Origin: Massilia aquatica
Lineage (GTDB): Bacteria > Pseudomonadota > Gammaproteobacteria > Burkholderiales > Burkholderiaceae_D
Direction: 5' to 3'
DNA length: 64,000 nt
Assembly: GCF_011682045.1 (NCBI RefSeq)
Contig: NZ_VVIW01000003.1
Location: 124,001 to 188,000 of the forward strand
In this document: positions 7,530 to 51,045 of the stretch, piece after piece
Layout of the letters: each line of letters opens with the position of its first letter
How positions within the stretch are numbered: position 1 is the first letter of the stretch
Position numbers and translations under genes: made by a program
Notes under the pieces: generated by a model
What the model saw: only the letters and a program-made list of their open reading frames with translations
Database searches by the model: none
What the model was told of the DNA's origin: nothing

Positions 7530-7539
7530 GGAGAACACC

Positions 7540-12350: not shown

Positions 12351-12387
12351 CGACGGCGTTACTCAACGACTAGAGAAGAAGAAATCC

Positions 12388-14200: not shown

Positions 14201-14271
14201 ATTTATATGATCGATATATAAATGCATAAACGAAATGGTATTTGTCAGCGTCGCAGCCACTGCTGCATAGT
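14201..14271 (+). promoter_or_regulatory. Composite operator/promoter, copy A, upstream of TonB receptor 1
   Basis: The operator-like palindrome ATTTATA-N9-TATAAAT (14201-14223) is followed by G, 13 bases, then GTATTTGTCA (14238-14247). The latter includes a -35-like TTGTCA (14242-14247). After 18 bases comes a -10-like CATAGT (14266-14271) preceded by TG. The same architecture with identical spacing occurs at 31824-31894 (minus) and 40415-40485. The receptor ATG lies about 280 bp downstream, leaving a long leader. Promoter function is inferred from conservation and geometry. Confidence 0.65.
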
Positions 14272-14549: not shown

Positions 14550-17500
14550 ATGATCAAACATAATCGGATGCAGGTCACCAAGCTGGCGCTGGCGCTGTCA
14601 ATCGCGCTGGCGACCTTGCCGGCCATGGCGCAGAACACCACGTCGGCTATCGGCGGGCGTATTTCCGCCGCCGACGGCAAGCCAGCCGGCGGCGCAACCG
14701 TATCCATCGTCCACGCCGAATCCGGTTCCGTCAGCAATGTCGTCACCGATGGCGAAGGGCGCTATGTGGCACGCGGCCTGCGTTCGGGCGGTCCGTACAC
14801 GATCATCATTACCAAAGACGGCATCACCGAAAAACGCGAAGGCGTGTTCATCCAGCTGGCCGAGACCGCTTCCGTCGACGCCACCCTGGGCGCGCCGATG
14901 CAGACCGTGACCATCGCCGGTTCGGCTGCCCGTTCGGAAAAATTCTCGAAATCGAACATGGGTTCCGGCACCAGCCTGAGCTCGAACGAAATCGCCACCC
15001 AGGCATCGATCCAGCGCAACCTGCAAGATTACGCCCGTGCCGACCCGCGCGTGGCCCAGACCGACAAGGAACGCGGCGAAATCTCCGTGGCCGGCCAGAA
15101 CTCGCGCTACAACTCGCTGACCATCGACGGCGTGGCCGTGAACGACACCTTCGGCCTGGAATCGAACGGCAGCCCGACCGCCAAGCAGCCGATCTCGATC
15201 GAAGCGATCCAGACCGTGCAGGTCAACGTCGCCAACTACGACGTGACGCAAAAGGGCTACACCGGCGGCAACATCAACGCCGTCACCAAGTCCGGCACCA
15301 ACACGCTCAAGGGCAGTGTTTACTATGTGTTCCGTAACGACAAGCTGTCGGGCGACCGCTACAACAACGCCAACGACACCTACTACGCGCCACCGTCGAC
15401 CAAGGACACCACCGCCGGCTTCACCCTGGGCGGCCCGCTGATCCAGGATAAGCTGTTCATTTTCGCTAACTACGAGAAGCTCGAATCGAGCCGCGCCGCG
15501 CCAGCCTTCGGCCCGCTGGGCAGCTCGCTGACCAACGTCGGCCTCACGCCAGCGTTCATTTCCAACGCGCAGACCATCGCCAAGGACAAGTTCGGCATCA
15601 ACGCCGGCACCACCGACGTGCCGGCTGGCGCCAAGCTGAACGTGGAAGACGCGCTGGTCAAGGTCGACTGGAACATCAACGACGACCACCGCGCCATGTT
15701 CCGCTACTCGAAGACCTCGCAGTCCGAGCCGCAATTTGCCGGCATTTCCGCCACCGGCCTGTCGCTCAACTCGCAGTGGTACGCGCAAGACAAGTCGATC
15801 GAAACCTTCGTCGCCCAGCTGACGTCCGACTGGACCCCTAACTTCTCGACCGAATTCAAGGTATCGCAGCGCGACTACGACAGCGTGCCGACCCTGAATT
15901 CGCGCCTGCCTGCGATCAGCCTGTCGATGTCAGGAGCGAACCCGGCCGGTACGCCGGCATCCGTGCCGACCACCAACCGCTCGCTCAACTTCGGTACCGA
16001 GAACAGCCGTCACCGCAACATTCTCGGCACCAAGACCGACGACATCTACCTGGGCGCCAACTGGGCCCTGGGTGACCACGAAGTCAAGTTCGGCACCGAC
16101 TACAGCAACAACAAGGTCTACAACGCCTTCCAGCAAAACATTTTCGGCAATTACAGCTTCAGCTGCCAGAATCCAAGCAACACCTGGACCTACAGCTTCG
16201 CGTTTGCCACCTGCGCCAATGCCACCCCGGCCCAGGTTGAGCAAGCCATCCTGGAAAACTTCAGCAAAGGCCGTCCAAGCTCGTACCAGTTGCAGGTTGC
16301 CGCCAAGGGCGTGAACCTGAACGACGCCGTTGCCGACTTCGCCCTGAAAAACTACGGCGCGTTTGTACAGGATACCTGGACCATCAGCCCGCGCCTGACC
16401 GTGACCGCCGGCGTGCGTCTCGATGCAGCGCGCATCAGCGACCGTCCACGCCGCAACAGCGCGATCGCCGCAGCGAAGATCGAAGGCGACTTCGCCAAGG
16501 GCATCCGCGAAAAAGGCGGTTATGGCCTGGACAACACCAACACCTTCGACGGCCAGAACCTGATACAGCCGCGTTTCGGCATCAACTACAACCTCGACAC
16601 CACCCGCAAGATGCAAATCCGCGGTGGCGCCGGCCTGTTCCAGGGTAACGCTGCCGCTGTCTGGCTGTCGAACCCGTTCTCCAACCCTGGCGTGGCAACC
16701 ACCACCGTCGGTTGCGGCACCGGTAACTTCGCTGCCTGCAATGGCGCAACCCTGTTCAGCGCCAATCCGGACCAGCAGCCAACCACCATTGGCGGCAACG
16801 CCTCGGCGCCGGCGGCCAACGTCGACATCCTGGCGCAGGGCTTGCGCCAGCCGTCGGTCTGGAAAGCCAACGTCGCCTTCGACATGGAACTGCCATGGTA
16901 CGGCCTGGTCTTTTCTGCGGAATACCTGCACGTGAAGTCCAAGGACGCGATCTACTACCAGAACCTGAACCTCGGCGCCGCCACCCGCAAGGGCAGCGAC
17001 GGCCGCGACCTGTTCTACACCGCGCAGGGTTACAACCCGTTGTGCTGGAGCGCGACCGGCAACTCGATCGCCAGCGGCACCGCTTGCACCGGCTTGCGTA
17101 ACAAGGCACTGAGCAACGAATCGTTCGCCAACGTGCTGCTGGCGCAGAAGACCGACAAGGGCGGCAGCGGCATGGCCACCATGTCGATCAGCCGTCCATT
17201 GACCTCGGGCCTGGGCTGGTCGGTAGCGTACACCTACACCGATGCCAAGGAAGTCTCGCCACTGACCTCGTCGACCTCGAACTCGAACTTCACCGGCCGT
17301 TCGGTGTTCAATCCGAACGAAGAAGTCAACGCCAATTCGAGCTACCTGGTCAAGAACCGCGTGAACGCCATCGTCAACTTCCAGAAGAACTTCTTCGGCG
17401 CTTACAAGACGCGTTTCGGCATGTTCTACGAAGGCCGTTCGGGTAAACCTTACAGCTGGACCATCAACAACGACTTGAACGGCGACGGTTCCGCTGGTAA

Positions 17501-17972
17501 CGACCTGATGTACATCCCGTCGGCGCCAGGTTCGGGCGAAGTGGTGTTCGCGGGCGACAAGCCAGGCAGCACTGTCAACGAAGACAAGTTCTGGAGCGTG
17601 GTCAACAGCAACAGCGTGCTGAAGAAAGCCGCTGGCGGCGTGGTTGGCCGTAACACGGACTTCTCGCCTTGGAGCAACAGCTTCGACATGCGCGTCTCGC
17701 AGGAATTGCCAGGCCTGTTCGCCAAGAACAAGGCTGTCTTCAGCCTCGACTTCTTCAACGTCGGCAACCTGCTGAACAAGAAATGGGGCCGTATCAATGA
17801 AGTCGGCTTCCAGGGCGCCGGCGCCCAGGCACGCAGCTTCGTCGACTACGTTGGTATGGAAAACGGCAAGTACATCTACAAAGTACGCGACAACGTCGAA
17901 TCGCTCGACGTTCGCCAGACCAAGGGCGAATCGCAGTGGGCCATCCAGGCGACCGTCAAGTACGAATTCTGA
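14550..17972 (+). CDS. Oar-like TonB-dependent receptor with N-terminal carboxypeptidase-regulatory-like domain
   Basis: This 1140-aa outer-membrane protein has a signal peptide ending LATLPAMAQ and a beta-sandwich carboxypeptidase-regulatory-like domain (about 33-120, GRISAADGKPAGGATVSIV). A plug (about 130-250, with NSRYNSLTIDGVAVNDTFG and GYTGGNINAVTKSGTN) and a long barrel ending in aromatic YEF follow. Family members import large or scarce substrates using TonB energy. Its location next to exported nucleases and the shared promoter suggest nucleic acid or nucleoside uptake; the substrate is inference. A second ATG six codons in (14568) is possible. Confidence 0.88.
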   Translation: MIKHNRMQVTKLALALSIALATLPAMAQNTTSAIGGRISAADGKPAGGATVSIVHAESGSVSNVVTDGEGRYVARGLRSGGPYTIIITKDGITEKREGVFIQLAETASVDATLGAPMQTVTIAGSAARSEKFSKSNMGSGTSLSSNEIATQASIQRNLQDYARADPRVAQTDKERGEISVAGQNSRYNSLTIDGVAVNDTFGLESNGSPTAKQPISIEAIQTVQVNVANYDVTQKGYTGGNINAVTKSGTNTLKGSVYYVFRNDKLSGDRYNNANDTYYAPPSTKDTTAGFTLGGPLIQDKLFIFANYEKLESSRAAPAFGPLGSSLTNVGLTPAFISNAQTIAKDKFGINAGTTDVPAGAKLNVEDALVKVDWNINDDHRAMFRYSKTSQSEPQFAGISATGLSLNSQWYAQDKSIETFVAQLTSDWTPNFSTEFKVSQRDYDSVPTLNSRLPAISLSMSGANPAGTPASVPTTNRSLNFGTENSRHRNILGTKTDDIYLGANWALGDHEVKFGTDYSNNKVYNAFQQNIFGNYSFSCQNPSNTWTYSFAFATCANATPAQVEQAILENFSKGRPSSYQLQVAAKGVNLNDAVADFALKNYGAFVQDTWTISPRLTVTAGVRLDAARISDRPRRNSAIAAAKIEGDFAKGIREKGGYGLDNTNTFDGQNLIQPRFGINYNLDTTRKMQIRGGAGLFQGNAAAVWLSNPFSNPGVATTTVGCGTGNFAACNGATLFSANPDQQPTTIGGNASAPAANVDILAQGLRQPSVWKANVAFDMELPWYGLVFSAEYLHVKSKDAIYYQNLNLGAATRKGSDGRDLFYTAQGYNPLCWSATGNSIASGTACTGLRNKALSNESFANVLLAQKTDKGGSGMATMSISRPLTSGLGWSVAYTYTDAKEVSPLTSSTSNSNFTGRSVFNPNEEVNANSSYLVKNRVNAIVNFQKNFFGAYKTRFGMFYEGRSGKPYSWTINNDLNGDGSAGNDLMYIPSAPGSGEVVFAGDKPGSTVNEDKFWSVVNSNSVLKKAAGGVVGRNTDFSPWSNSFDMRVSQELPGLFAKNKAVFSLDFFNVGNLLNKKWGRINEVGFQGAGAQARSFVDYVGMENGKYIYKVRDNVESLDVRQTKGESQWAIQATVKYEF

Positions 17973-18108: not shown

Positions 18109-19797
18109 ATGAATCTATACTCAAGGCCCCTTTGCGCCGCGCTCGCCGCGGCCTTCCTGTCGGCGGGCTGCGCCACGCGCCCGACGGCCCCGATCGAGAT
18201 CAACCTGGTCGCCCTGAACGACTTCCACGGCCACCTCGACGCCACCAAATTCCAGTACACCAGCATCCACGCCAGCGGCCAGCAAACCGCGCAGGCGGGC
18301 GGCGTGGATACCATCGCCGCCGCCGTCCAGGCCTGGCGCCGCGAAGACAAGGACCTGCTGTTCGTCGGCGCCGGCGACCTGATTGGCGCCTCGCCGGCCA
18401 TGTCGTCGATGTGGGCCGACGAACCGGCGCTGGAAGCCTTGACCATGGCCGGCATGCGCATCTCCTCGGTCGGCAATCACGAATTCGACAACGGCCGCGC
18501 CGAACTGCTGCGCCAGCAGCGCGGCGGCTGCGAGTCGGTGCGTCCCGAAAAGGCCTGCCAGTTCAGCAAGGACTTCCGTGGCGCGGGCTTTACTTACCTG
18601 GCCGCCAACGTGATCGACGACGCCACCGGTAAACCCTTCCTGCCGGCCTACCGGATCGAAGACGTCAAGGGCGTCAAGGTCGGCCTGATCGGCGCCGTGC
18701 TGCGCAACACCGCTTCGGTGGTGCTGGCCTCGGGCATCGTCGGATTGACATTCGAAGATGAAGCGACCGCGATCAACCGCGTCATCCCCGCCATGCGCGC
18801 CGAAGGTGCGCAGGTGTTCGTGGTGCTGATCCACGAAGGCGGCACCACTCCGGAACCGTTCGACAAGCCCGATTGCAGCGCCCTCAAAGGCCCGGTGGTC
18901 GACATCGTCAAGAAGCTCGATCCTGCCATTCGCGTGATCGTCAGCGGCCACTCGCACACGGGCTTTCAGTGCAAGGTGGACGGGCGCGTGGTAACCCAGG
19001 GCGAGATGGGCGGCCACGTCCTGTCGCGCATCAAGATGATGGTCGATCCGGCCAGCGGCGCGGTGGCCGACATCGCGGTGCGTAACGTGATCATGAAGCC
19101 GGGCGAATATCCACCCGATGCGCGCGTGTCGGCGTTTCTCAGGCAAGCCAAGGAACGCAGCGAAGCGGCCTTGGGGCGGCCGGTAGCGCGCGTGGCCGTG
19201 CGTTCGATCCACCGCAAGGAAAGCGCCGGCGGCGAAACCGTGCTCGGTGGCCTGATCGCCGACGCCGTGCTGGCCGCCACCAAAGCGCAGGGCGTGCAGA
19301 TCGGCTTCATGAACATGGGCGGCATGCGCCAGGACCTCGACGTCGAAGCGAACCTCACCGCCACCTACGGCGACGTGCAGATCGTGCTCCCGTTCGGGAA
19401 TACCATCGTGGTCATGGACATGAGCGGCGCCCAGATCCGCGCGCTGCTCGAACAGCAGTGGGCGCGCCCGGGCGCGAGCAGCGTCTCGGTGCTGCAGGTC
19501 TCCGACGGCTTCAGCTACCGCTGGAACAAGAACGCGCCGAAGGGCCAGCGCGTGGTGCGCGACAGCGTCACCCTGAACGGCAAGGCGCTCGACGACGCCG
19601 CCATGTATCGCGTGGCCGGCAACAACTTCCTGGCCGAAGGCGGCGACAGCTTCCCCGCCTTTGCCGCCGCCGCCAACAAGCGCGACACGCAGATCCGCGA
19701 TATCGACGCCGTGGTGCAGTTCCTGGTCCAGCAGGACAAGGCGGGCAAACCGGCCGGCAGCGACACGCCGCCGGGCCGCATCGGGACGGTCCAATGA
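18109..19797 (+). CDS. Exported 5'-nucleotidase/metallophosphatase lipoprotein
   Basis: It dephosphorylates nucleotides to nucleosides outside the cytoplasm (UshA-type reaction by family). The 562-aa product has a lipobox LSAGC at residues 17-21 and no other leader. Metallophosphatase motifs are LNDFHGHL (about 37-43), GAGDLIGASP, VGNHEFDNG (about 121) and GHSHTG. A C-terminal 5'-nucleotidase domain (MGGMRQDL, AGNNFLAEGGDSF) follows. Its stop overlaps the PLD-family gene by four bases (ATGA), so the pair is probably translationally coupled. Confidence 0.92.
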   Translation: MNLYSRPLCAALAAAFLSAGCATRPTAPIEINLVALNDFHGHLDATKFQYTSIHASGQQTAQAGGVDTIAAAVQAWRREDKDLLFVGAGDLIGASPAMSSMWADEPALEALTMAGMRISSVGNHEFDNGRAELLRQQRGGCESVRPEKACQFSKDFRGAGFTYLAANVIDDATGKPFLPAYRIEDVKGVKVGLIGAVLRNTASVVLASGIVGLTFEDEATAINRVIPAMRAEGAQVFVVLIHEGGTTPEPFDKPDCSALKGPVVDIVKKLDPAIRVIVSGHSHTGFQCKVDGRVVTQGEMGGHVLSRIKMMVDPASGAVADIAVRNVIMKPGEYPPDARVSAFLRQAKERSEAALGRPVARVAVRSIHRKESAGGETVLGGLIADAVLAATKAQGVQIGFMNMGGMRQDLDVEANLTATYGDVQIVLPFGNTIVVMDMSGAQIRALLEQQWARPGASSVSVLQVSDGFSYRWNKNAPKGQRVVRDSVTLNGKALDDAAMYRVAGNNFLAEGGDSFPAFAAAANKRDTQIRDIDAVVQFLVQQDKAGKPAGSDTPPGRIGTVQ

Positions 19798-21008
19798 CGC
19801 CGCTTCGGCGCGGCCTCGCCGCACTGCTTGCGCTGGTCCTGGGACCGCAGGCGCAGGCCGGCTTTTCCATTCCCGGCTATGAATTGGTGCAGACCGCGCC
19901 GGTGGAAACCACGCTGGTCAACCCGGACCTGCGCAGCAGTACGGCCGTGTGGACGCAGCTGTTCGACGAGGCGCGCAGCGAGATCGTGATCGGCCAGTTC
20001 TACGCCATCAGCAAGGCCGGCACGCCGTTCGACAAGGTGGTCGAGCGCCTGGAAGCGGCCGGCAAGCGCGGTGTGAAGATCCGCTTCTTGCTCGATAAAA
20101 AAGGCGTCGGCCTGTCCGACCCCGGCACCCTGGAGCGGCTGCGCAAGATCCCCAATCTGGAGCTGCGCGTGCTCGATTACGCGCAGCTGACCGGCACCGG
20201 CATCATCCACGCCAAGTACCTCGCGGTGGATAAAAAGGCGGCCTTTATCGGCAGCCAGAATTTCGACTGGCGCGCGTTTACCCATATCCACGAAACCGGC
20301 CTGTTGATCAGCGACGCGGCCATGGTGGCGCAGGTGCAGGCCGTGTTCGAGCGTGACTGGCAGGCGCAGTCGCTGCTGGCGTCAAAGCTGGCGGTGCCGC
20401 GCGCGGTGCCGGCGAACGTGCTTGCGCAGGCCGCGCAACTGGTCGCCAGCCCGGCGGCCTACAATCCGCCCGGCGTGGCCGATTCCGAAGTGGTGCTGCC
20501 GGCCTTGCTGGCCGATGCGAAGAACGAAGTGCGCATCCAGCTGCTCGACTACGCGCCGCTCGGTTACGGGCCTGACAACACGCGGCCGTACTACGGCGTG
20601 ATCGACAACGCGGTGCGCGCAGCCGCTGCGCGCGGCGTGAAAATCAAGCTCATGGTCTCGAACTGGAACACCGACCAACCCGGCATCGCCTACCTCAAAA
20701 GCCTGGCGCTGCTGCCGAACGTCGAGGTGCGCATCGTCACCTTGCCGGTGGCGTCGAGCGGGCCGATTCCGTTCGCGCGCGTCATCCACAGCAAGACCAT
20801 GACGATCGACGGCAAGCTGGCCTGGGTCGGCACCAGCAACTGGGCCGGCGGGTACTTCGACAAGTCGCGCAATCTCGAAGTCGTGCTGCGCAACGAGAAG
20901 ATGGCGCAGCGCCTGGGCGCACTGCACGAGCAGACCTGGAGCTCGTCGTACGCGGCGCCGATCGAGATTGGCAAAGACTATCCAAAACCGAACAAGGGAA
21001 CTGAATGA
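19794..21008 (+). CDS. Exported phospholipase D-fold phosphodiesterase
   Basis: This 404-aa protein has a signal peptide (LAALLALVLGPQAQA) and two HKD motifs, HAKYLAVDKKAAFIGSQN near residue 138 and HSKTMTIDGKLAWVGTSN near residue 331. This gives the two-lobed PLD catalytic site. PLD-fold enzymes cleave phospholipids or nucleic acids. The flanking nucleotidase and S1/P1 nuclease, each joined by a four-base overlap, favour a nuclease or exonuclease role; this is inference. The overlap-defined ATG at 19794 excludes the longer upstream frame. Confidence 0.85.
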   Translation: MTPLRRGLAALLALVLGPQAQAGFSIPGYELVQTAPVETTLVNPDLRSSTAVWTQLFDEARSEIVIGQFYAISKAGTPFDKVVERLEAAGKRGVKIRFLLDKKGVGLSDPGTLERLRKIPNLELRVLDYAQLTGTGIIHAKYLAVDKKAAFIGSQNFDWRAFTHIHETGLLISDAAMVAQVQAVFERDWQAQSLLASKLAVPRAVPANVLAQAAQLVASPAAYNPPGVADSEVVLPALLADAKNEVRIQLLDYAPLGYGPDNTRPYYGVIDNAVRAAAARGVKIKLMVSNWNTDQPGIAYLKSLALLPNVEVRIVTLPVASSGPIPFARVIHSKTMTIDGKLAWVGTSNWAGGYFDKSRNLEVVLRNEKMAQRLGALHEQTWSSSYAAPIEIGKDYPKPNKGTE

Positions 21009-22060
21009 TGAAGAAACTGGCTTGTGTACTGGCGCTCGCGGGCGCCTTCGTGTCGGCGGAAGCGCTGGCCTGGGGCGCCGAAGGGCACCGCGCGGTCGGC
21101 GCCATCGCCGAAAAACTGATCAAGGGCAGCAACGCCGAGAAGCAGGTGGCGGCCTTGCTGCTGCCCGGCGAAAGCCTCGAATCGATTACCGTCTGGGCCG
21201 ACAGCGCCAAGGGTGGCGCCGGCTATACGCCGCCGACCGCCGAGATGAACGCCTACACGGCGGTCAACCCGCGCCACAATGAGTATCACTACACCGACAT
21301 CCCGTTCCAGAACGAGCACTATCATGACGGCGCGGTCGGCACGGCCGACGTGGACATCGTGCAAACGCTCAAGCAGGCCATCGCCGTCTTGCAGGGCAAG
21401 ACCGACCCGGCGCTTAATCCCAACAAGCTGACCCGCCGCCAGGCCTTGCTGCTGGTGGCGCACATGACCGGCGACATCCACCAGCCGCTGCACGTGGGCG
21501 CGGCGTTCGTCGGCAAGGATGGCAAGTTCGCGGTGCCGAAAAAGCACGAGGATGTCGACAGCCTGAATATCTACGATTCGCGCGGCGGCAACAGCCTGCT
21601 GCTCGACGACGACAAGCTTACGACGCTGAGCGCGAAGCTGATCGAGGGCGAAGCCAGGCCGCTGCCGCCGGGTGCGCAGAAGTGGACCACCCGGCCGTTC
21701 CACTCGTACTGGGACAGCACCGTGGTCGACTACGCGATGCGCCGCATCAGCACCAAGACCCCGGAGCAGTTCGCGCAGAAGGTCATCGACGGCAAACCGG
21801 TGGTGGCGAAGAACACGGGCGAGGCTACCAGCTGGCCGTACCAGTGGGCCGACGATGCGCTGGCTGCATCCAAGCTGGCGTATTCGGACGTCACGCCCGG
21901 TGCGATCGGCAAGCAAACCAACCGCAAGGGCGAAACCTACTACACCTTCGGGCTGGAGATGGGATCGAACTATCCGGTGCCAAGTTCCGCGCTGGCCAAG
22001 ACGCAGCTGATCAAGGGTGGGTACAACCTGGCGTCGCTGCTGCAAACCATCTGGCCGTAA
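21005..22060 (+). CDS. Secreted S1/P1-type nuclease
   Basis: This zinc-dependent nuclease digests single-stranded DNA and RNA and removes 3'-phosphates in known family members. The 351-aa precursor has a signal peptide ending VSAEALA, so the mature protein begins WGAEGHR. The free N-terminal Trp plus His is the hallmark trinuclear-zinc ligand of S1/P1. Further ligands fit VWADSAK, EYHYTDIPF, HMTGDIHQPLHVG and the WDSTVVDY helix. It overlaps the PLD gene (ATGATGA), completing an exported nucleic-acid degradation trio. Confidence 0.92.
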   Translation: MMKKLACVLALAGAFVSAEALAWGAEGHRAVGAIAEKLIKGSNAEKQVAALLLPGESLESITVWADSAKGGAGYTPPTAEMNAYTAVNPRHNEYHYTDIPFQNEHYHDGAVGTADVDIVQTLKQAIAVLQGKTDPALNPNKLTRRQALLLVAHMTGDIHQPLHVGAAFVGKDGKFAVPKKHEDVDSLNIYDSRGGNSLLLDDDKLTTLSAKLIEGEARPLPPGAQKWTTRPFHSYWDSTVVDYAMRRISTKTPEQFAQKVIDGKPVVAKNTGEATSWPYQWADDALAASKLAYSDVTPGAIGKQTNRKGETYYTFGLEMGSNYPVPSSALAKTQLIKGGYNLASLLQTIWP

Positions 22061-25787: not shown

Positions 25788-26756
25788 TTAACGCGATTTG
25801 ACGAACGGTTTGCCGATCGCTTTCGGCGCCACCGACTTGGCCATCAGGCCCGCCAGCACGATCACGGTGACCACGTACGGCACCATCTGGATCAGCGAGC
25901 CCGGAATGCGTCCGATGCCCGGCAAGTCCACGCCTTCGATCTGGATCTGCACCGCGCTGAAAAAACCGAACATCATGCAGCCGAGCGCCGTGTACATCGG
26001 ACGCCAGTTACCGAATACCAGTGCGGTCAGCGCCAGGTAGCCTGCCCCTGCCGACATATCGCGCAGGAAGAAGCCGCTCTGCACGATCGCCAGGTAAGCG
26101 CCCGAGAACGAGCACAGGATGCCGGCCACCAGCATCGCCATGTAGCGCGTGGTGGCGACACTGACGCCGGCCGCGTCGGCCGCGTGCGGGTTTTCGCCGC
26201 AGGCGCGCAGGCGCAGGCCGAAGCGGCTGTGGTAGATCACCCAGTGCACCAGCGGGATCAGCGCGAAGGCCAGGTAGACCAGCGCCGAATGGCCGCCGAT
26301 CACGTGGCCGTAGAACCAGCCGATGAAGGGAATGCCTTCCAGCGCCTGGGTGCCCGGCAGGACGATGTCGAACAGGCGCGCCTGGCCCAGGTCCGGCGTG
26401 CGGCCGCCCTGCTGGTAAAAGAACTGCGCCAGCACGAAGGTCAGGCCGCTCATGGCGATGTTGATCGCAATGCCGCCCACCAGCTGGTTGCCCTTCTGGG
26501 TGATGCTCACGTAACCCTGCAGCAGCGCCAGTGCGGCCGATACGGCCACGCCGGCCGCCACGCCGTACCAAGCGTTCTGCGTGGTGAAGGCGACAGCGGC
26601 CGAGACGAACGCGCTGGCGAGGATCTTGCCTTCCAGGGCGATGTCGACCACGCCGCTGCGTTCGGCGAACAGGCCGGCCATCGCGGCGAAAATCAGGACC
26701 GGCGCATTGCGGATGGTGGAGACGACAATGCTGGATAAATGGAGGTCTTCGAACAT
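25788..26756 (-). CDS. Nucleoside ABC transporter permease (second, BPD_transp_2 family)
   Basis: This 322-aa polytopic protein is of the branched-chain-type permease family used by BMP/nucleoside importers. It has about eight to ten hydrophobic segments; landmarks are GLFAERSGVVDIALEGKIL near the N-terminus and RACGENPHAADAAGVSV, the ATPase-contacting EAA-like loop. It follows the first permease after 3 bases. With its partner it forms the membrane pore. Confidence 0.9.
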   Translation of the reverse strand: MFEDLHLSSIVVSTIRNAPVLIFAAMAGLFAERSGVVDIALEGKILASAFVSAAVAFTTQNAWYGVAAGVAVSAALALLQGYVSITQKGNQLVGGIAINIAMSGLTFVLAQFFYQQGGRTPDLGQARLFDIVLPGTQALEGIPFIGWFYGHVIGGHSALVYLAFALIPLVHWVIYHSRFGLRLRACGENPHAADAAGVSVATTRYMAMLVAGILCSFSGAYLAIVQSGFFLRDMSAGAGYLALTALVFGNWRPMYTALGCMMFGFFSAVQIQIEGVDLPGIGRIPGSLIQMVPYVVTVIVLAGLMAKSVAPKAIGKPFVKSR

Positions 26757-26759
26757 GGC

Positions 26760-27838
26760 TTATCCTTTGCGAATGTTAAGCAGCTTCAGGACAGCGGGCG
26801 CATACAGGTTTTCCATCGCGCCGCAGAACAAAATGATCAGCCCCTGGATGAAGATGAAGGTCTCTTGCGGGATGTTCGGTTTTTCCAGCGACAGGTCGAA
26901 ACCGCCCTGTATCAGTGCACCGAACAAGACGCTCGACAGGAAAATGCCGACCGGGTGCTGGCGTCCCATCAGCGCAATCGCAATGCCGATAAAACCGGCG
27001 CCGGCCGGGAAGTTCAGGCTCAGGTAATGGGTCGAGCCCATCACCGAATTGACCGCGGCCAGGCCGGCCAGCGCGCCCGAAATGAGCATCGCCACGATGA
27101 TCATGCGGCTGATCGACACGCCCGCATAATGCGCGGCGTTTTGATTGAGGCCGGTGGCGCGCAGCTGGTAGCCCCACGAGGAACGCCATACCATCATGCC
27201 GTAGATGACCAGGGCGGCGATGGCGATCAGGAAGCTGACGTTCAGTGGCGTGTCGCCCAGCACCGGGAACCATTCGTTCAGGCGCGGCATGGCGCCGGCT
27301 TCCGAAAACACGCGGCTGGCCGGGTTTTGCTGGCCTTCCGGGATCAGGTACTTGACGATGATGAAGTTCATCAGGCTGGCCGCGATGAAGTTGAACATGA
27401 TGGTCGTGACCACCACGTGGCTGCCGCGCCTGGCCTGCAGGTAGCCGGGCAGGAATGCCCAGGCCGCGCCGAACAGCGCGCTGCCGATCATCGCCGCTGG
27501 AATGAGCAGCCAGGCCGGCAGGGAGTGGTCGAGCGTGAGCATGACCACGGTCAGCCCCAGGCCGCCGAGGTACATCTGGCCTTCGCTGCCGATGTTGAAC
27601 AGGCCGGCCTTCATGGCGATCGACACCGACAGGCCGGTGAAGATGAAGGTACTGGCGTAGAACAGCGTGTAGCTCAGGCCCTCGGGGTTGATGACGGCCG
27701 AATCGATCAAGATGCCGAGCGATTCGGTCGGGCTTTCGCCGAGCAGGTGGATCACCAGCGCGGCCACCAGCAAGGCCGACAGCAGGTTCAGTACAGGCAG
27801 CACAAACGCGCTTGCCCAGCGTGGGAGTTCGGTCGTTT

Positions 27839-27842
<4 letters not shown>
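26760..27842 (-). CDS. Nucleoside ABC transporter permease (first, BPD_transp_2 family)
   Basis: This 360-aa polytopic permease has the family landmarks GLFNIGSEGQMYLGGLG and RATGLNQNAAHYAGVSIS (ATPase coupling loop) and a C-terminal segment ALIQGGFDLSLEKPNIP. The start overlaps the ATPase stop by four bases (ATGA). Together with the ATPase, second permease and BMP binding protein this is a complete nucleoside importer of the NupNOPQ/BmpDEFG type. Confidence 0.9.
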
Positions 27843-29368
<1,526 letters not shown>

Positions 29369-29463: not shown

Positions 29464-30459
29464 TCAGACCGGGCAGCTGCTTCCAACGCGGTAGTCGACG
29501 ACCTTGACTTTGCCGCTGATGATATTGGCCTTGGCTTCATTGACGCGTTTTTCGATTTCCGGCGTGACGACCGCGCGGTTATCCTTGTCCAGCGCCCAAT
29601 CGACGCCGCCTTCTTTCAGGCCTTTGTAGGTAACGCCGGCTTTCCAGGTGTTGTTCTTCATCTGCATGAAGGACTCGTAGATCGCCAGGTCGACGCGCTT
29701 GACCATGGAGGTGAGCATGGTACCCGGATGCAGGTAGTTCTGGTTCGAGTCGACGCCGATGGCCAGCTTGCCTTTTTCCTTGGCCGTCTGCAGGGTGCCC
29801 ATGCCGCTGCCGCCGGCAACGGCGAACACCACGTCCACGCCGCGGTCGAACTGCGCACGCGCCAGCTCACCGCCCTTGGCCGGATCGTTCCAGGCTGCGG
29901 CGGTGGTGCCGACCATGTTCTGCATGATCTCGATTTTCGGGTTGGTCGCTTTGGCGCCCTGGCTGTAGCCGCAGGCGAACGTGCGGATCAGCGGAATATC
30001 CATGCCGCCCACAAAGCCGATTTTTTTCGACTTCGATGCGATGGCGCCAGCCACGCCGGCCAGGTACGAGCCTTCTTCTTCCTTGAACAGGATCGAGTTG
30101 ATGTTGTTACCCTTGGCCACAGCGTCGATCAGCACGAAGCGCACGTTCGGGAACTCCTGCGCGACCTTTTGCACGGCCTGGGTCTGCGAGAAGCCAACCG
30201 CCGCGATCAGGTCCATCTTCTTGCGCGCCAGGCCGCGCAGCACTTGCTCGGCCTGGGTATCGCTGCTGGCCTGCGCCTCGATGTATTTGATATTGGTCTC
30301 TTTTTTAAAGCGCTCGGCGCCTTCAAAAGCGGACTGGTTGAACGACTTGTCGAACTTGCCGCCGGCGTCGTACACGATGCCCAGTTTTGGGTCGGCAGCC
30401 GTGGCGCTGGCCGCGACGCACAGCGCCGCGATCGTGATACTAAGTTGCTTTAATTTCAT
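29464..30459 (-). CDS. BMP-family nucleoside-binding periplasmic protein
   Basis: This 331-aa solute-binding protein has a signal peptide (MKLKQLSITIAALCVAASATA) without a lipobox cysteine, so it is soluble rather than lipid-anchored, unlike PnrA/Med lipoproteins. BMP landmarks are GGKFDKSFNQSAFEGAERF, IAAVGFSQTQAV, GFVGGMDIPLIR, FACGYSQGAK and VFAVAGGSGMGTL. These proteins bind purine nucleosides in known cases. A strong ribosome site (CCAGGAG) precedes the ATG, and tal lies 79 bp upstream in the same direction. Confidence 0.92.
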   Translation of the reverse strand: MKLKQLSITIAALCVAASATAADPKLGIVYDAGGKFDKSFNQSAFEGAERFKKETNIKYIEAQASSDTQAEQVLRGLARKKMDLIAAVGFSQTQAVQKVAQEFPNVRFVLIDAVAKGNNINSILFKEEEGSYLAGVAGAIASKSKKIGFVGGMDIPLIRTFACGYSQGAKATNPKIEIMQNMVGTTAAAWNDPAKGGELARAQFDRGVDVVFAVAGGSGMGTLQTAKEKGKLAIGVDSNQNYLHPGTMLTSMVKRVDLAIYESFMQMKNNTWKAGVTYKGLKEGGVDWALDKDNRAVVTPEIEKRVNEAKANIISGKVKVVDYRVGSSCPV

Positions 30460-30538: not shown

Positions 30539-31618
30539 CTAAGCAAGCAAAGCCAGCAAATTGGCGTGTGCTTGCTCGAATTGTGTCAGGCCGGCGCGCA
30601 AGAGGTCGTTACCAATTGTATCGAGTGCGATGCCGTGGCGGGTCAATTGCGTCAGTACGGCGCGCGCGCCATCGACATCGTCAATGAGCGACAGGCGCGC
30701 TTCGCCATGGTCGCGAAACGCCGCCAGGGTCGCATCGGGCACGGTATTGACGGTCTCCGCACCGATCAATTCTTCAACGTAGGTCACGTCGCGCATGTCC
30801 GGATTCTTTACGCCGGTGCTGGCCCACAGCAGCCATTGCGGGGTGGCGCCGAACGCGCTGAAAATCGCAAAGCTGCCGTCGTTGCGGAACTCGTGATACG
30901 CCACGCGCGCGGCGGCAATGGCCGCCTTGCCGCGCAGGCTAGATGCGGCCGGCGGCAGCAGCGCGTCGACGGCGGCGTCGACCCGGCTGATAAAGACACT
31001 GGCCACGCTGGCGATGCGCTGCACCGAGAGCTTGGCTTCGAGGCGGCGCGCCAGGCCGCGCCGGTGCGCGGCGCGCACGGCGGCCAGCTGGGCGGCGCTG
31101 AAAACCAAGGTGACGTTGACGTTGATGCCGGCGTAGATCACTTCTTCCAGCGCCGCGATGCCCGCTTCGGTGGCGGGAATCTTGATCATCGCATTCGGCC
31201 GGCCGATGGCGGCCCACAGGCGCTGTGCATCGGCCACGGTGCCGGCGGCATCGTGCGCCAGGCGCGGCGCGACCTCGAAGCTGACAAAGCCCGCATGGCC
31301 GTCGCTGTCAAGGTACAAGGGCGCGAACAGGTCGCACGCGGCCTGCACGTCGGGCAGCACCAGTGCTTCGAAACGCGCTTCGGGGTCGACGTGGGCGGCG
31401 CGAAAAGCCGGCAGCGCGGCCTGGTAGGCGGCATCGCTGCGGATCGCGTTGTAGAAAATCGAGGGATTCGAGGTCACGCCACAAATGCCGTCGTCGGCGA
31501 TCCAGCGCGCCAGCTGGCCCGAGGAGATCAGTTCGCGGCTGAGCTTATCGAGCCAGATTTGCTGGCCCAGCCCGGCCACGGCCTTGAGGCGGCTGGCGGA
31601 TGCACTAAGTTGGTTCAT
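30539..31618 (-). CDS. tal: Transaldolase (type 2, long bacterial form)
   Basis: It moves a dihydroxyacetone unit between sugar phosphates in the non-oxidative pentose phosphate pathway. The 359-aa product has the type-2 opening IWLDKLSRELISSGQL, GVTSNPSIF, the Schiff-base Lys in NAMIKIPATEAG and NVNVTLVFS. Its placement ahead of the nucleoside importer, behind a promoter shared with punA-deo, suggests a role in using ribose phosphate released from nucleosides. This operon assignment (tal-bmp-ABC) is inference from same-strand spacing. Confidence 0.93.
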   Translation of the reverse strand: MNQLSASASRLKAVAGLGQQIWLDKLSRELISSGQLARWIADDGICGVTSNPSIFYNAIRSDAAYQAALPAFRAAHVDPEARFEALVLPDVQAACDLFAPLYLDSDGHAGFVSFEVAPRLAHDAAGTVADAQRLWAAIGRPNAMIKIPATEAGIAALEEVIYAGINVNVTLVFSAAQLAAVRAAHRRGLARRLEAKLSVQRIASVASVFISRVDAAVDALLPPAASSLRGKAAIAAARVAYHEFRNDGSFAIFSAFGATPQWLLWASTGVKNPDMRDVTYVEELIGAETVNTVPDATLAAFRDHGEARLSLIDDVDGARAVLTQLTRHGIALDTIGNDLLRAGLTQFEQAHANLLALLA

Positions 31619-31823: not shown

Positions 31824-31894
31824 ACTATGCATCAGCCCTAATATGTATGACAAATACGATTTTGCTTCGGCATTTATATGATCGAAATATAAAT
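31824..31894 (-). promoter_or_regulatory. Composite operator/promoter, copy C, for tal and the nucleoside ABC genes
   Basis: Read on the minus strand: palindrome ATTTATA-N9-TATAAAT (31894-31872), G, 13 bases, GTATTTGTCA (31857-31848) with -35-like TTGTCA (31853-31848), 18 bases, then CATAGT (31829-31824). The tal ATG is about 205 bp downstream. On the other side a TonB receptor gene starts at 32102, and a weak extended -10 (TGC-TACGAT ending 31942) could be its promoter. The remaining 31619-32101 space holds no gene that I can support. Confidence 0.65.
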
Positions 31895-36649: not shown

Positions 36650-37290
36650 ACAAGACAGTGCTGCTGACGGGCTTCGAGCCGTTCAACAAAGAGACCATCA
36701 ACCCGGCGTGGGAGGCGGTGCGCGCGCTGGCCGGGCATGAGGGTGACGGCTACCGGATCGAGGTGCGCCAGTTGCCCTGCGTGTTCGGCGCCGCCGGCGA
36801 GGTGCTGCGCGCCGCGATCGATGAGTTGCGCCCCGACGTGGTGATCGCGGTCGGCCAGGCCGGGGGCAGGGTGGACCTGTCGGTCGAACGCATCGCCATC
36901 AATATCGACGACGCGCCCATTCCCGACAATGCGCAGTGCCAGCCGATCGACCAGCCGGTGGTTGAAGGCGGACCGGCGGCCTACTTTTCGACCCTGCCGA
37001 TCAAGGCCATCGTGGCCGCCCTGCGCGAGGGCGGTTTACCGGCGTCGGTGTCGCAGAGTGCCGGCACCTTCGTGTGCAATCACGTTTTCTACAGCCTGAT
37101 GCAGCGGACGGCGGGCATGGATATCCGGGCGGGCTTCATCCACATTCCCTACCTGCCGCAGCAGGCCGCCGCCCACCCGGGGGCGCCCAGCATGGCGCTG
37201 GCCGAGGTGGTGCGCGGATTGATTATTGCGCTGGAAGTGGCGCTGGCCGCCGGCCTTGATGTGTGCGAAGCCGGCGGCGCAGTTTCCTAA
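36646..37290 (+). CDS. pcp: Pyrrolidone-carboxylate peptidase (pyroglutamyl peptidase I)
   Basis: It removes N-terminal pyroglutamate from peptides. The 214-aa cysteine peptidase (C15) has [18 protein letters not shown], the catalytic Glu region [18 protein letters not shown], catalytic Cys in [11 protein letters not shown] and catalytic His in [10 protein letters not shown]. It overlaps DUF979 by four bases upstream and converges on the LysR gene with a four-base overlap at its end. Confidence 0.94.
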
Positions 37291-38186
37291 GCAGTCGGAT
37301 TGAGGATGTTCAGGAATGCCCGCACCACCGGCGCGTCGTCCTGGGTGGTGTAGGTGATGTACAGATTGGCCGAGGGCGCGTTGGTCTTGATCGGCAAGAA
37401 GATCACGCCCGGCCAGCCGATGCGGCTGGTCGTCTCGGGCATCAAGGCCACGCCCAGGCCCGCACCCACCATCGCCAGCAAGGTTTGCGGCTCGGACGCT
37501 TCCTGGAAGATCGTCGGCTGGAAGCCGGCCTTGATGCAGCACTGGATCAGGTAGCGCGGGAAGGCCGACTTGTCCAGCGCCAGCGTGAGCATCGGCTGGT
37601 CGGCAATGTCGGCCAGTTCGATCCATGGCTGCGTGGCCAGCCGGTGGTGCTCGTTGACCGCCACGCAGACATTCTCGCGGAAGCACAATTCCTGGCGCAG
37701 GTTGTCGTGTTTGAGTTCATCTTCATCGAGCTTGGGCTCGCGCCAGAAACCGACGTCGATCTGCTTGGCGCGCAGCGCCTCGTACTGCACGTTCGGTCCC
37801 GACTCGTGCAAAGTCCAGGTCACGCGCGGGAACTTGGTCTGGAATTCTTCGAGCAGGCTGGGAATCGGTCCCCACATGGCCGAACCGACGATGCCGACCC
37901 GCAGGCGGCCCACTTCACCGCGGTCGATCTGGCGGATGGTGTCGATCGTCATGCGCATCTTGGCCAGCAGGTCCGATGCTTCCCCCATCAGCGCCTTGCC
38001 CGCCACCGTCAGCTCGAAGGTGCGGGTGGTGCGCGCGAACAGGCGCACGCCCAACTCGCTCTCGAGCTTCATGATCTGCTGGCTCAAGGGCGGCTGCGAG
38101 ATGTGCAGCCGTTCGGCGGCGCGGCTGAAGCTTTTTTCTTCAGCTACCGCGAGGAAGTACTTGAGCTGTTTCAGGTCGATGGACAT
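37287..38186 (-). CDS. LysR-family transcriptional regulator
   Basis: This 299-aa protein has an N-terminal winged helix ([36 protein letters not shown]) and a LysR substrate domain from about residue 90 ([20 protein letters not shown]). It is closest in style to BenM/CatM-type regulators. It converges with pcp rather than diverging from a target, and it reads toward pcp from a start near psuG, so its target is unclear. Confidence 0.9.
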
Positions 38187-38207: not shown

Positions 38208-39137
38208 TCAGATCGGCTGCAGGCCTGGCAGGTCGCGCATGGCCACGGCCAGCTCGGCGCCAATCTGGGCGTTGTGCTTGACCAGTGCAATGTTGGTCAT
38301 CAGGCTGCGCCCTTCGGTCAGGGTCTTGATGCGCGCCAGCAGGAACGGGGTAACGAGCTTGCCGGTCACGCCGCCATCGCGCGCTTCGCGCAATGCCTGT
38401 TCGGTGATGCTGTCGATTTCATCCTTTTGCATCGCAAACGCTTCCGGCACCGGGTTGCTGACGACGATGCCGCCATGCAGGCCTAGCTGCCATTTGGTCT
38501 GGATGAAGGCGGCTTGCTCCAGCGCCGAATCGAGCTGGAAGTCGGCCTTGAAGCCGCTGTCGCGCGTGAAGAAGGCCGGAAAACCCGGCTGCCCGACGCT
38601 GATCACCGGTACGCCATGCGTTTCCAGGTATTCGAGCGTGAGGCCGATGTCGAGGATCGACTTGACGCCGGCGCAGACCACCGCCACGTTGGTGCGCGCC
38701 AGTTCCTGCAGGTCGGCCGAGATGTCGAAGCTCGTTTCCGCGCCGCGGTGCACGCCGCCGATGCCGCCCGTTACAAAAACGTGGATGCCGGCCAGCTGCG
38801 CGCAGATCATGGTCGCGGCCACGGTGGTGGCGCCCAGACGGCCTTGCGAGAGCACGTACGGCAGGTCGCGCTGCGAGACCTTCATGGCGTCGGGCGAGGT
38901 GGCCAGCAGTTCGAGCTGCTCGGCCACCAGGCCAATGCAGATCTTGCCTTCGATGATGGCGATGGTGGCCGGTACCGCGCCGGCGGCGCGGATAACGTGT
39001 TCGACTTCCTGCGCCATCGTCACGTTTTGCGGGTACGGCATGCCGTGCGAGATGATGGTCGACTCCAGGGCGACGATGGGTTTGCCGGCGGTGCGGGCGG
39101 CGGCGACTTCGGGCGAGAACAAGAGATATTGGTGCAT
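38208..39137 (-). CDS. psuG: Pseudouridine-5'-phosphate glycosidase
   Basis: It splits pseudouridine 5'-phosphate to uracil and ribose 5-phosphate. The 309-aa product has PIVALESTIISHGMPYPQN, the Lys/Asp active-site region (RDLPYVLSQGRLGATTVAAT), VFVTGGIGGVHRGAE and VVCAGVKSILDIGLTLEYLE. The ATG at 39137 comes 2 bases after the psuK stop. The longer upstream frame is the shadow of psuK. Confidence 0.95.
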   Translation of the reverse strand: MHQYLLFSPEVAAARTAGKPIVALESTIISHGMPYPQNVTMAQEVEHVIRAAGAVPATIAIIEGKICIGLVAEQLELLATSPDAMKVSQRDLPYVLSQGRLGATTVAATMICAQLAGIHVFVTGGIGGVHRGAETSFDISADLQELARTNVAVVCAGVKSILDIGLTLEYLETHGVPVISVGQPGFPAFFTRDSGFKADFQLDSALEQAAFIQTKWQLGLHGGIVVSNPVPEAFAMQKDEIDSITEQALREARDGGVTGKLVTPFLLARIKTLTEGRSLMTNIALVKHNAQIGAELAVAMRDLPGLQPI

Positions 39138-39139
39138 GG

Positions 39140-40285
39140 TCAGTCCTGGTAAAGAGCGTTGAACGGTTGCTGGGCGCCGGGGAGGGCGTCGGGATTCGGA
39201 ATCTCGGCGAGCACTTCCGCCGTCAGGTAAGGGCACACGGTTTCTTCGCAGGCGAGCGTCATGGCTGACAACTGCAGGCCGCGCCGGCAGGCCAGCGTCA
39301 TGTCGTCGCTGCCCTGGAACAGGGACCAGCATACCGCAGCGGCAAAGGCGTCGCCCGCACCGGTGACGTCGACAATCCGCGCCGCTTGCGCGTCGAGCTG
39401 CGCGATGCCGCCGGCGGTGGTGTAGACCACGCCGGTGGCGCCGCGCGTGACGATGACGTCCTGCGCGCCTTGCGCCTGGATGGCGCGGCAGGCGGCCAGG
39501 AAGTCGGCGTCGGTCAAGAGCTTCGCGCCGATGCGCGTTTCGAGTTCGCCCTGGTTCAGGATCAGCAGGCGCAGGCCGCGCAGGTCGTCCGGCAGGTGCG
39601 CCATTTTCGGCTGCGATACGGCGACGACCACCAGCGGCACCGCGCCGCGCGCGGCGTCGTCGAGCAGGACGCGCAAGGTCTCGCGCGGCAGGTTCAGGTC
39701 GGCCACGATCAGGGCGCCGCCGGCGCGCTGCGGCTGGCGCGTGTCCAGGAAGGCGGGGGTGAGGGCGTCGTACAGGGCCATGTCGGCCAGCGCCAGCAGC
39801 ATTTCGCCATGGTCGTCCAGCACCGCGGTGTAGGTGCCGCTGCAAACCCCGGTCAGGTGCAGGGTGGCGCGGGTGTCGATGCCGGCCGCCTCGGCGTGCG
39901 CAAGCAGCGCCTTGCCGGACGAATCGTCGCCGATGGCGGTGATCAGCGCAACGGGGGCCGACAGGCGCGCCAGGTTCTCGGCGATATTGCGCGCCACGCC
40001 GCCGAACGATTCGTCCTGGCGCGCGGGATTCGAGGTGCCCATCTTCAGGGTGGCGATGGAACGCAGTTTGCGGTCGAGGTTGGCGGCGCCGAGGCAGACG
40101 ATGGGACGGTTATCGGGCAGCACATAGGCGCGGCCGAGCACGCGCCGGTCGCGGATCAGGCCGGCGATGTAGCCGGCCACGGCGGAACGCGACAAGCCCA
40201 GCACGCTTGCCAGATCTTGCTGCGAAATGAAGGGATTGGCGCGGATCAGTTCGTACAACTGGTCTTTTTTGGAGAGTTCGGTCAC
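39140..40285 (-). CDS. psuK: Pseudouridine kinase fused to an N-terminal DNA-binding domain
   Basis: This PfkB-family kinase phosphorylates pseudouridine for PsuG. The first ~55 residues form a winged helix (QDLASVLGLSRSAVAGYIAGL), followed by the PfkB domain from about residue 60 (CLGAANLDRKLRS, FGGVARNIAENLARL) ending in the ATP/anion-hole motif DVTGAGDAFAAAVCW. The fused HTH suggests self-regulation through the palindromes in its promoter. The start is uncertain: GTG at 40285 gives MTELSKKDQ and TTG at 40294 is the alternative; neither has a good ribosome site. Confidence 0.88.
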   Translation of the reverse strand: MTELSKKDQLYELIRANPFISQQDLASVLGLSRSAVAGYIAGLIRDRRVLGRAYVLPDNRPIVCLGAANLDRKLRSIATLKMGTSNPARQDESFGGVARNIAENLARLSAPVALITAIGDDSSGKALLAHAEAAGIDTRATLHLTGVCSGTYTAVLDDHGEMLLALADMALYDALTPAFLDTRQPQRAGGALIVADLNLPRETLRVLLDDAARGAVPLVVVAVSQPKMAHLPDDLRGLRLLILNQGELETRIGAKLLTDADFLAACRAIQAQGAQDVIVTRGATGVVYTTAGGIAQLDAQAARIVDVTGAGDAFAAAVCWSLFQGSDDMTLACRRGLQLSAMTLACEETVCPYLTAEVLAEIPNPDALPGAQQPFNALYQD

Positions 40286-40299
40286 AATAAGCAATCATT

Positions 40300-40414: not shown

Positions 40415-40485
40415 ATTTATATCTTGCGCGTATAAATGAAGAAGAAAAATGGTATTTGCCATACATATCCTTGATCCTGCATAGT
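40415..40485 (+). promoter_or_regulatory. Composite operator/promoter, copy B, for punA and the deo genes
   Basis: ATTTATA-N9-TATAAAT (40415-40437), G, 13 bases, GTATTTGCCA (40452-40461) with -35-like TTGCCA (40456-40461), 18 bases, then CATAGT (40480-40485). It has exactly the spacing seen at 14201 and 31894. The punA ATG is 89 bp downstream. Confidence 0.7.
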
Positions 40486-40573: not shown

Positions 40574-41416
40574 ATGTCGAACAACACCCCCTTCGAAGCC
40601 GCCGATATCATCCGCGCCCGCAAACCTGGTTTTGAGCCGCGCGTGGCGATGATCCTCGGTTCCGGCCTTGGCGTGCTGGCCGAGCAGATGACCGACGCGG
40701 TCTCGATCGGCTTCGACGAACTGCCAGGTTTTCCGATCAGCACCGTGCACGGTCACGCCGGTGAACTGGTGCTGGGCACCCTGGCGGGCGTGAACGTGGT
40801 GTGCATGAAGGGCCGCGGCCACTTCTACGAAGGCTACGGCATGGGCGTGATGACCAGCGCCGTGCGCACCATGAAGCTGCTCGGCTGCGAGATGCTGTTC
40901 GTGACCAACGCCGCCGGTTCGCTGCGCACTGAAGTCGACGCGGGCAGCCTGGTGGCCCTGACCGACCATATCAACTGGCTGCCTGGCACGCCGATGGTCG
41001 GCCCGAATGACGACCGTTTCGGCCCGCGCTTCTTCAGCATGGCCAATGCCTACGATAGCGATATCCGCAACGTGGTCAAGGAGACCGCTGCGGCCAAGGG
41101 CATCACCTTGCATGAAGGCGTGTTCATTGCGTATCCGGGGCCGAACTTCGAGACCGCCGCCGAAATCCGCATGATGGCCAAGCTGGGTGCGGACGTGGTG
41201 GGCATGTCGGTGGTGCCGGAAGTGGTCTCGGCGCGCCATTGCGGTTTGAAGGTGGTTGGCGTGTCGGTGATTACCAACCTGGCCGAAGGGATGTCGCCGT
41301 TCCCGCTGTCGCACGAGCAGACCTTGAAGTACGCCGCCATCGGCGCCAAGGATCTGGTTGAGTTGATCCCGGCGTTCCTGGAGCGCGTTGCGCAACAACC
41401 GCGCGCCGCTGCCTGA
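40574..41416 (+). CDS. punA: Purine-nucleoside phosphorylase (trimeric class)
   Basis: It cleaves purine (deoxy)nucleosides with phosphate to base plus (deoxy)ribose 1-phosphate. The 280-aa product has the phosphate-site ILGSGLG, GRGHFYEGYG, FVTNAAGSLRTEV, the diagnostic GVFIAYPGPNFETAAEIRM, VGMSVVPEVVSARHCG and VITNLAEG, where Asn supports 6-oxopurine preference. It heads the punA-deoB-deoC-ALDH-deoA-cdd run. Xanthosine phosphorylase XapA is a related alternative. Confidence 0.92.
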   Translation: MSNNTPFEAADIIRARKPGFEPRVAMILGSGLGVLAEQMTDAVSIGFDELPGFPISTVHGHAGELVLGTLAGVNVVCMKGRGHFYEGYGMGVMTSAVRTMKLLGCEMLFVTNAAGSLRTEVDAGSLVALTDHINWLPGTPMVGPNDDRFGPRFFSMANAYDSDIRNVVKETAAAKGITLHEGVFIAYPGPNFETAAEIRMMAKLGADVVGMSVVPEVVSARHCGLKVVGVSVITNLAEGMSPFPLSHEQTLKYAAIGAKDLVELIPAFLERVAQQPRAAA

Positions 41417-41461: not shown

Positions 41462-41552
41462 CGTCGTCCCCGGCCTGGGCGGCCCCCTTGGCGGGGATCC
41501 ATAGCACCTGTAAGCATCGGTGCTATGGACCCCCGCCTTCGCGGGGGAGACG
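41462..41552. repeat. Dispersed triple-hairpin repeat, copy 2 (punA-deoB gap)
   Basis: The central stem CCATAGCACC pairs with GGTGCTATGG, flanked by GC-rich hairpins (last arm CCCCCGCC-TTCG-CGGGGG). The first arm is expanded and degenerate. It lies inside the presumed punA-deo operon, where it could modulate mRNA stability. Confidence 0.75.
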
Positions 41553-41618
41553 GAGGCAAACGGTAGCGGGCTTGTATTACATCTACCATACCTGAACCTT
41601 TCTGAAGCGAGCGATCCC

Positions 41619-43765: not shown

Positions 43766-43782
43766 ACACCTACGGATTCGTC

Positions 43783-46161: not shown

Positions 46162-46212
46162 GCCGGCGGCCAGTGACGACAATATCAAGCAATTAGCAAA
46201 TAAAGGCTTCAC

Positions 46213-47535: not shown

Positions 47536-47550
47536 ACGTCGCTTTACCCC

Positions 47551-47629: not shown

Positions 47630-47699
47630 TCTTGAGGGAGACGGTCCCAGTGGGGCCTGAACCCGGCGTGATAGTTAAACTGCCTTGTCAGGACCACTT

Positions 47700-51044: not shown

Positions 51045-51045
51045 G

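Follow-up and report, generated by a model that had tools for sequence, protein, structure and literature searches.

The systems described so far that come closest to the locus considered here are promoters controlled by LysR-type regulators. In E. coli, XapR is described as a xanthosine-induced activator that has two sites, one of them partly overlapping the -35 element (available parts of PMC7205307), and these two XapR sites of xapAB are rated as low-evidence in the portion of PMC7567609 that was accessible. At the BenM/CatM promoters, Site 1 carries a T-N11-A motif within ATAC-N7-GTAT, and Site 2, which has an A-run, overlaps the -35 element; the same source, in its available parts, describes BenM and CatM as able to repress in the absence of effector (PMC6628147). 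An extended LysR-type consensus, CTATA-n9-TATAG, is given in the accessible portion of PMC5002191. Among the open papers searched, none was found that joins XapR with Massilia or Janthinobacterium, subscription journals being mostly outside the scope of this search.

The stretch of Massilia aquatica DNA analysed here, 64,000 nucleotides in length, is referred to as the window. It had been claimed to contain three 71-bp copies of a composite operator/promoter, and their strands and spacer lengths were confirmed at 14201-14271 (plus), 31894-31824 (minus) and 40415-40485 (plus). The composite has the form ATTTATA-N9-TATAAAT-G-N13-GTATTTGYCA-N18-CATAGT, with spacers that are equal in length in all three copies and differ in their letters. 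A search of the window for ATTTATA-N9-TATAAAT with up to three mismatches gave three sites, all of them exact, against an expectation of 0.08, and none of 100 shuffles of the window reached three sites. In the whole 7.47-Mb genome, this palindrome has three exact matches, all of them within the window; no site differs from it by one base, and six differ by two. The palindrome read backwards, which served as a control, reaches 12 sites when two mismatches are allowed, so that the six are no more than chance would give. A scan of the complete genome had also been proposed in the original prediction, and in it the full composite (up to three mismatches) occurs three times, all of these being the window copies, with no unrelated matches. 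Based upon a 71-position sequence-only model, which was built from 44 family sites including the three from the window, the three copies score 67.6, 64.1, and 44.6 bits in a genome scan, and the next match listed, the palindrome of copy 2 on the opposite strand, scores 16.3 bits (150 of the 1143 first-look candidates were scored). The three-copy pattern is real and stands far above chance. The elements within the copies are as follows.

14201..14223, plus strand: Site 1 (recognition) palindrome of copy 1, ATA-N9-TAT with T-N11-A
14227..14241, plus strand: putative Site 2 (activation) of copy 1, an A-run and a GTAT half-site, from sequence and column conservation
14242..14247, plus strand: putative -35 element of copy 1, TTGTCA
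14266..14271, plus strand: putative -10 element of copy 1, CATAGT
31872..31894, minus strand: Site 1 palindrome of copy 2, by pattern match
31854..31868, minus strand: putative Site 2 (activation) region of copy 2
31848..31853, minus strand: putative -35 element of copy 2, TTGTCA
31824..31829, minus strand: putative -10 element of copy 2, CATAGT
40415..40437, plus strand: Site 1 palindrome of copy 3, by pattern match
40441..40455, plus strand: putative Site 2 (activation) region of copy 3
40456..40461, plus strand: putative -35 element of copy 3, TTGCCA
40480..40485, plus strand: putative -10 element of copy 3, CATAGT

The palindrome had originally been matched to no published operator. However, it holds the T-N11-A box of LysR-type regulators and shares its geometry with the xapA promoters of enterobacteria (see below); it also agrees with the extended consensus CTATA-n9-TATAG, as given in the accessible portion of PMC5002191, save for the outermost base pair. 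The T-N11-A dyad is present in all three window sites and in 41 of 44 aligned family sites. In this alignment, which was hand-picked from 90 rows (omitting near-duplicates and part of the sites in which the -10 spacer differs, but keeping three with a 17-bp spacer) and whose column counts therefore describe that choice, ATA at columns 5–7 and TAT at columns 17–19 are each found in 37 of the 44 sites, GTAT at columns 38–41 in 42, TTGCCA or TTGTCA in 35, CATAGT in fixed register in 38, and an ATAC half-site at columns 47–50, overlapping the end of the -35 element, in 31. Columns 27–41 mostly read xAAG-N7-GTAT with an A-run. The aligned sites come from several genera, across which the boxes and the spacer lengths are held and the spacer sequences vary. 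The centres of Site 1 and Site 2 are 22 bp apart, compared with 21 bp in the case of BenM. The Massilia copies thus resemble the BenM/CatM promoters in having a T-N11-A Site 1 and a second, A-run site at the -35 element (available parts of PMC6628147), but they differ in that BenM and CatM serve another pathway and respond to another effector, and no clear Site 3 is seen in the Massilia copies. Judged from its letters, the putative -10 element CATAGT matches the consensus poorly and is probably weak, whereas the putative -35 element TTGYCA is close to the consensus. The reading of GTATTTGYCA as a -35-like element is kept for its TTGYCA part, and the GTAT part probably serves the regulator besides RNA polymerase. 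The activator-like geometry proposed for the composite operator/promoter is supported, with Site 1 lying at an activator position.

All three copies face genes that can be connected with the uptake or use of nucleosides, as was originally suggested, the nucleoside specificity of the importer and of the receptor being presumed. The next ORF begins 278 bp after copy 1 (an Oar-like TonB receptor, at 14550), 205 bp after copy 2 (tal, followed by a Bmp-type ABC importer), and 88 bp after copy 3 (a xapA/punA-type gene heading a deo-type run). Based upon gene order and strand, from which the operon structure is deduced, the target genes are:

14550..17972, plus strand: target 1, Oar-like TonB-dependent receptor (CarboxypepD_reg, OMP_b-brl_4, and weak Plug matches)
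18109..19797, plus strand: 5'-nucleotidase-family protein downstream of target 1
21005..22060, plus strand: S1/P1 nuclease-family protein downstream of target 1
30539..31618, minus strand: target 2, transaldolase (tal), which lies between the site and bmp in 2 of 20 loci of relatives
29464..30459, minus strand: target 2, Bmp/PnrA-like substrate-binding protein of an ABC importer
25788..29368, minus strand: target 2, ABC ATPase and two permeases
40574..41416, plus strand: target 3, XapA/PunA-type purine nucleoside phosphorylase (TIGR01699, 411.6 bits against a cut-off of 370.9)
41520..48104, plus strand: target 3 continued, deoB, deoC, aldehyde dehydrogenase, pyrimidine-phosphorylase-type (deoA-like), and cytidine-deaminase-type genes

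The gene order after copy 1 is Oar-like receptor, 5'-nucleotidase-family, PLD-like, S1/P1 nuclease-family and MipA-family, and the phosphorylase behind copy 3 shows 66.5% identity to E. coli XapA over 275 aa. Target 1 is adjoined by xanthine dehydrogenase-type genes, XdhC, guanine deaminase, and an adenosine-deaminase-like gene (5973-13887), which have no composite of their own. A LytTR-type response regulator and a histidine kinase (50286-51936, minus strand) are also found close to the nucleoside genes.

The window had been thought to contain no obvious cognate regulator. This view is not upheld, as two regulator-like genes are present in a row of three that is divergent from copy 3 and in which a winged-helix/PfkB gene is followed by a PsuG-like gene and then by a gene of the LysR type, the distribution of which follows that of the composite:

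37287..38186, minus strand: XapR-type LysR-family protein of 299 aa, the proposed cognate regulator based upon domains, homology, and distribution
38208..39164, minus strand: PsuG-like protein (PF04227), between the regulator and kinase genes, exact start uncertain
39140..40294, minus strand: PsuK-like winged-helix/PfkB fusion whose gene is divergent from target 3; of the two regulator candidates, the less probable

The LysR-type protein contains a LysR helix-turn-helix domain (PF00126, 3.7e-26) and a substrate-binding domain (PF03466, 1e-37), and it is 99% identical in the nearest named loci, which are those of Massilia atriviolacea, M. mucilaginosa, and M. frigida (the record of the window itself is possibly absent from this comparison). 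It passes the cut-off of the NCBIfam model NF007439 (PRK09986), with 322.3 against 290 bits; this model is listed as LysR family and we take it to stand for XapR. Its identity to E. coli XapR is 40% over 296 aa. E. coli PunR, which by annotation is likewise a LysR-type regulator of purine nucleoside genes, was considered as an identity for this protein and rejected, because the likeness between the two is confined to the DNA-binding part (38% over 87 aa). The winged-helix/PfkB protein was the initial regulator candidate, and it was set aside when family-wide searches separated its gene from the composite.

Sites upstream of the orthologous genes are also present in relatives, in agreement with the original prediction. 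Forty loci of about 20 kb each were fetched, and 26 of them contain the 50 sites that score 15 or more. These precede punA (26 sites), bmp (18), the Oar-like receptor (3), and tal followed by bmp (2), and the remaining one lies at the edge of its locus, where the following gene is truncated. The Oar gene lies within three of these 26 loci, and a site is found before it in each of the three. No sites were found in the other 14 loci, all of which are from genomes that lack the window-type LysR gene (10 that have the winged-helix/PfkB gene only, and four that were fetched for chance palindromes). Of 19 target ORFs behind further composites in relatives and in the genome G019, six match the Oar-like receptor at 58–72% identity, one matches tal at 42%, and two from G019 match bmp and the ABC ATPase gene at 56% and 55%, respectively. 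In the g40 genomes (L113, L114, L115, and L117) a composite is present 22–32 bp before four ORFs, which from their translations we presume to encode an OmpR-type response regulator and which count against the explanation proposed below; the remaining further target ORFs presumably encode a second type of TonB receptor, LuxR-like regulators, and a PHP-like protein.

Upstream of xapA, E. coli has ATCGATA-N9-TATTGAA-N14-GTATTGG-N21-TATAAA, the elements of which keep the register of the Massilia copies, and a composite of matching register precedes xapA in 13 enterobacterial xapR loci, that of E. coli included. In the other twelve of these loci the site lies from about 44 to 71 bp before the xapA match and aligns without gaps, which is partly so by construction as the 71-bp enterobacterial windows were chosen by the Massilia matrix; at the Entomohabitans xapA site, the -10 element is one base nearer. 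When the spacer x in ATA-N9-TAT-Nx-GTATT[TG]G was allowed any length from 8 to 30, 12 matches were obtained at x=18 (in 11 of the 13 loci), one at x=17, and none elsewhere; both loci not found by this pattern depart from it in a single base, which has the same position in each. The Massilia position matrix places the xapA site first in eight loci, second in four, and third in E. coli, with a negative score in all 13, and the 71-position model finds a match at E<1 in two of the 13 loci, one of the two being a site of E. coli that faces yfeN and not xapA. In view of this weak overall similarity at the xapA sites, the link to XapR rests on protein homology and on the exact spacing. The Massilia locus and E. 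coli xapR/xapAB are alike in the LysR-type protein and in XapA, and also in ATA-N9-TAT, the 18-bp spacer, GTATTkG, and the 21 bp that lead to the -10 element. However, the Massilia arms are ATTTATA/TATAAAT in contrast to the mostly ATYRATA/TATYRAT-like arms of the enterobacterial xapA sites, there are three promoter units instead of one, transport is represented by an ABC importer and a TonB receptor, and the regulator gene comes after psuK-psuG-like genes. Searches of the window with E. coli XapB (tblastn) and YfeN gave no match at E<=1e-3, and the lack of a XapB-type symporter weakens the claim of a full xapABR system but not that of a XapR-type regulator.

The geometry is also found outside of xapR loci. 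In 26 loci of other LysR-type genes, which came from the same search as the xapR loci and were meant as negative controls, the strict pattern had five matches (three at spacer 18, two at 17, and none at any other length), and a looser pattern allowing spacers of 16–19 had 11 matches in 10 loci, all of them at 17 or 18. In eight of the 26 loci (L177, L182, L188, L197, L202, L203, L209, and L210) the composite, with ATA-N9-TAT, 17 or 18 bp, and RTATTRG, sits at the start of the LysR-type gene and faces away from it; the hosts are a cyanobacterium, an actinobacterium, a myxobacterium, and proteobacteria. The 71-position model, which was run on 11 of the 26 loci, gave no match at E<1. The presence of similar composites in these loci indicates that the geometry is common to a wider LysR-type group, and hence that it is neither specific for XapR nor diagnostic alone; what is particular to the Massilia system is the sequence of the arms and the set of targets.

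Based upon these observations, the three copies are very probably sigma70-type promoters under activation by a single LysR-family regulator of the XapR type, the gene of which is located between them, at 37287-38186 on the minus strand. The conserved regulon is real and a good candidate for its regulator can now be named; the kind of switch is one already known, and the target set appears to be new, as an enlarged regulon. We infer that a dimer of the regulator would bind Site 1 (ATTTATA-N9-TATAAAT), with its centre at about -66 from the likely transcription start, and that the second dimer of a tetramer would touch Site 2 (xAAG-N7-GTAT), the centre of which is 22 bp downstream and which has the A-run and abuts the -35 element TTGYCA. 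By analogy with XapR, xanthosine or a related purine nucleoside is proposed as the inducer, and the induced complex would bring RNA polymerase to the weak -10 element CATAGT. The genes predicted to be induced together would then provide outer-membrane uptake and breakdown of nucleotides and nucleic acids (Oar-like receptor, nucleotidase, and S1/P1 nuclease), import across the inner membrane (Bmp-type ABC importer), and catabolism (XapA, DeoB, DeoC, pyrimidine phosphorylase, and cytidine deaminase).

An alternative is that the palindrome is bound by the winged-helix/PfkB (PsuK-like) protein encoded beside copy 3, a kinase doubling as a regulator. Its N-terminal part has a helix-turn-helix match, its gene is divergent from target 3, and in a survey of 245 family genomes it was found in 75 of the 76 that bear the composite, namely the 75 in which the composite and the LysR-type gene occur together. 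In this survey the composite, searched for as 25 fixed bases with up to three mismatches, was detected in 76 genomes and its reversed control in none, the LysR-type protein (E<=1e-60) in 77, and the winged-helix/PfkB protein (E<=1e-50) in 85; as the family genomes are related, Fisher values for such co-occurrence do not represent independent probabilities. The genomes that decide between the two proteins are few, 11 in all, from three genera. Ten of them (nine of one genus and one of another) have the winged-helix/PfkB gene but lack both the LysR-type gene and the composite, and no site was found in about 20 kb around the winged-helix/PfkB gene in any of the ten. G019 presents the reverse case: it has a LysR-type protein of 69% identity and two composites that lack one base in the spacer before the -10 element, one of them between lysR and a divergent ABC ATPase gene, but no winged-helix/PfkB match at E<=1e-50. 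The LysR-type gene thus tracks the composite better in both directions. In the survey counts, the LysR-type protein stands without the composite in G019 and in G112, the latter having only a paralogue of 39% identity. The composite is found alone in G184, a genome without a LysR match, close to one extremity of a 7.7-kb contig on which none of 34 window proteins gave a match at E<=1e-8 (one weak match has 5e-6). As the box is of the LysR type and the geometry recurs at the xapA promoters of xapR loci, we consider binding by the winged-helix/PfkB protein to be very unlikely.

It may also be asked whether the LysR-type protein acts mainly as a repressor, or as a dual regulator, of promoters that are active by default. 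The closeness of TTGYCA to the -35 consensus and the ATAC half-site over the end of this element (31 of 44 aligned sites) would suit such a role, of which BenM and CatM provide an example (PMC6628147, available parts). However, CATAGT is a poor -10 element, Site 1 is at the position of an activator, and E. coli XapR is itself described as an activator in the available parts of PMC7205307, so that repression is an improbable account, if slightly less so than binding by the kinase-like protein. The least credible explanation, to which we give almost no weight, is that the repeats arose by recent duplication, or belong to mobile DNA that carried a promoter along, with no shared regulation. The three copies do lie within about 26 kb, but their spacer sequences differ, and the spacer lengths and the boxes are maintained throughout the 44 aligned sites from several genera, which disfavours a recent origin by copying.

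If activation by the XapR-type protein is correct, it would provide a precise operator definition for XapR-type regulators, and it supplies the outer-membrane receptor/nuclease operon, which belongs to bacteria of soil and water, with a proposed regulator and regulon. It also leads to a testable prediction in E. coli K-12, where XapR may control yfeN, the product of which is a Tsx-family channel (PF03502). In the 8-kb stretch examined from this strain, a second composite is present between xapA and yfeN (L110:5990-6060), facing yfeN; it scores 14.7 bits over columns 1–50 of the 71-position model (E=0.002 in 72 kb and 0.008 in 285 kb), and AACAAT, a poor match, is found at its -10 position. The broader proposal, that in Massilia, Duganella, Janthinobacterium, and their relatives a XapR-type regulator has become the master switch for feeding upon extracellular nucleic acids and uses a single fixed 71-bp promoter to tie together an outer-membrane receptor, nucleases, an importer, and catabolism, and that E. 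coli XapR controls yfeN by the same geometry, hitherto unnoticed, is put forward tentatively, as a possibility that falls somewhat short of an even chance. Of the open papers searched, one names both yfeN and XapR, and its available parts report that another regulator, HusR, has a site within the xapA-yfeN region. A pattern search found no composite on the yfeN side in Phytobacter (L176) and C. sedlakii (L180), where yfeN is beside xapA. A composite with a spacer of 17 faces yfeN in Entomohabitans (L183), and one with the same spacer is present upstream of yfeN in Limnobaculum (L179), in which yfeN is located away from xapA.
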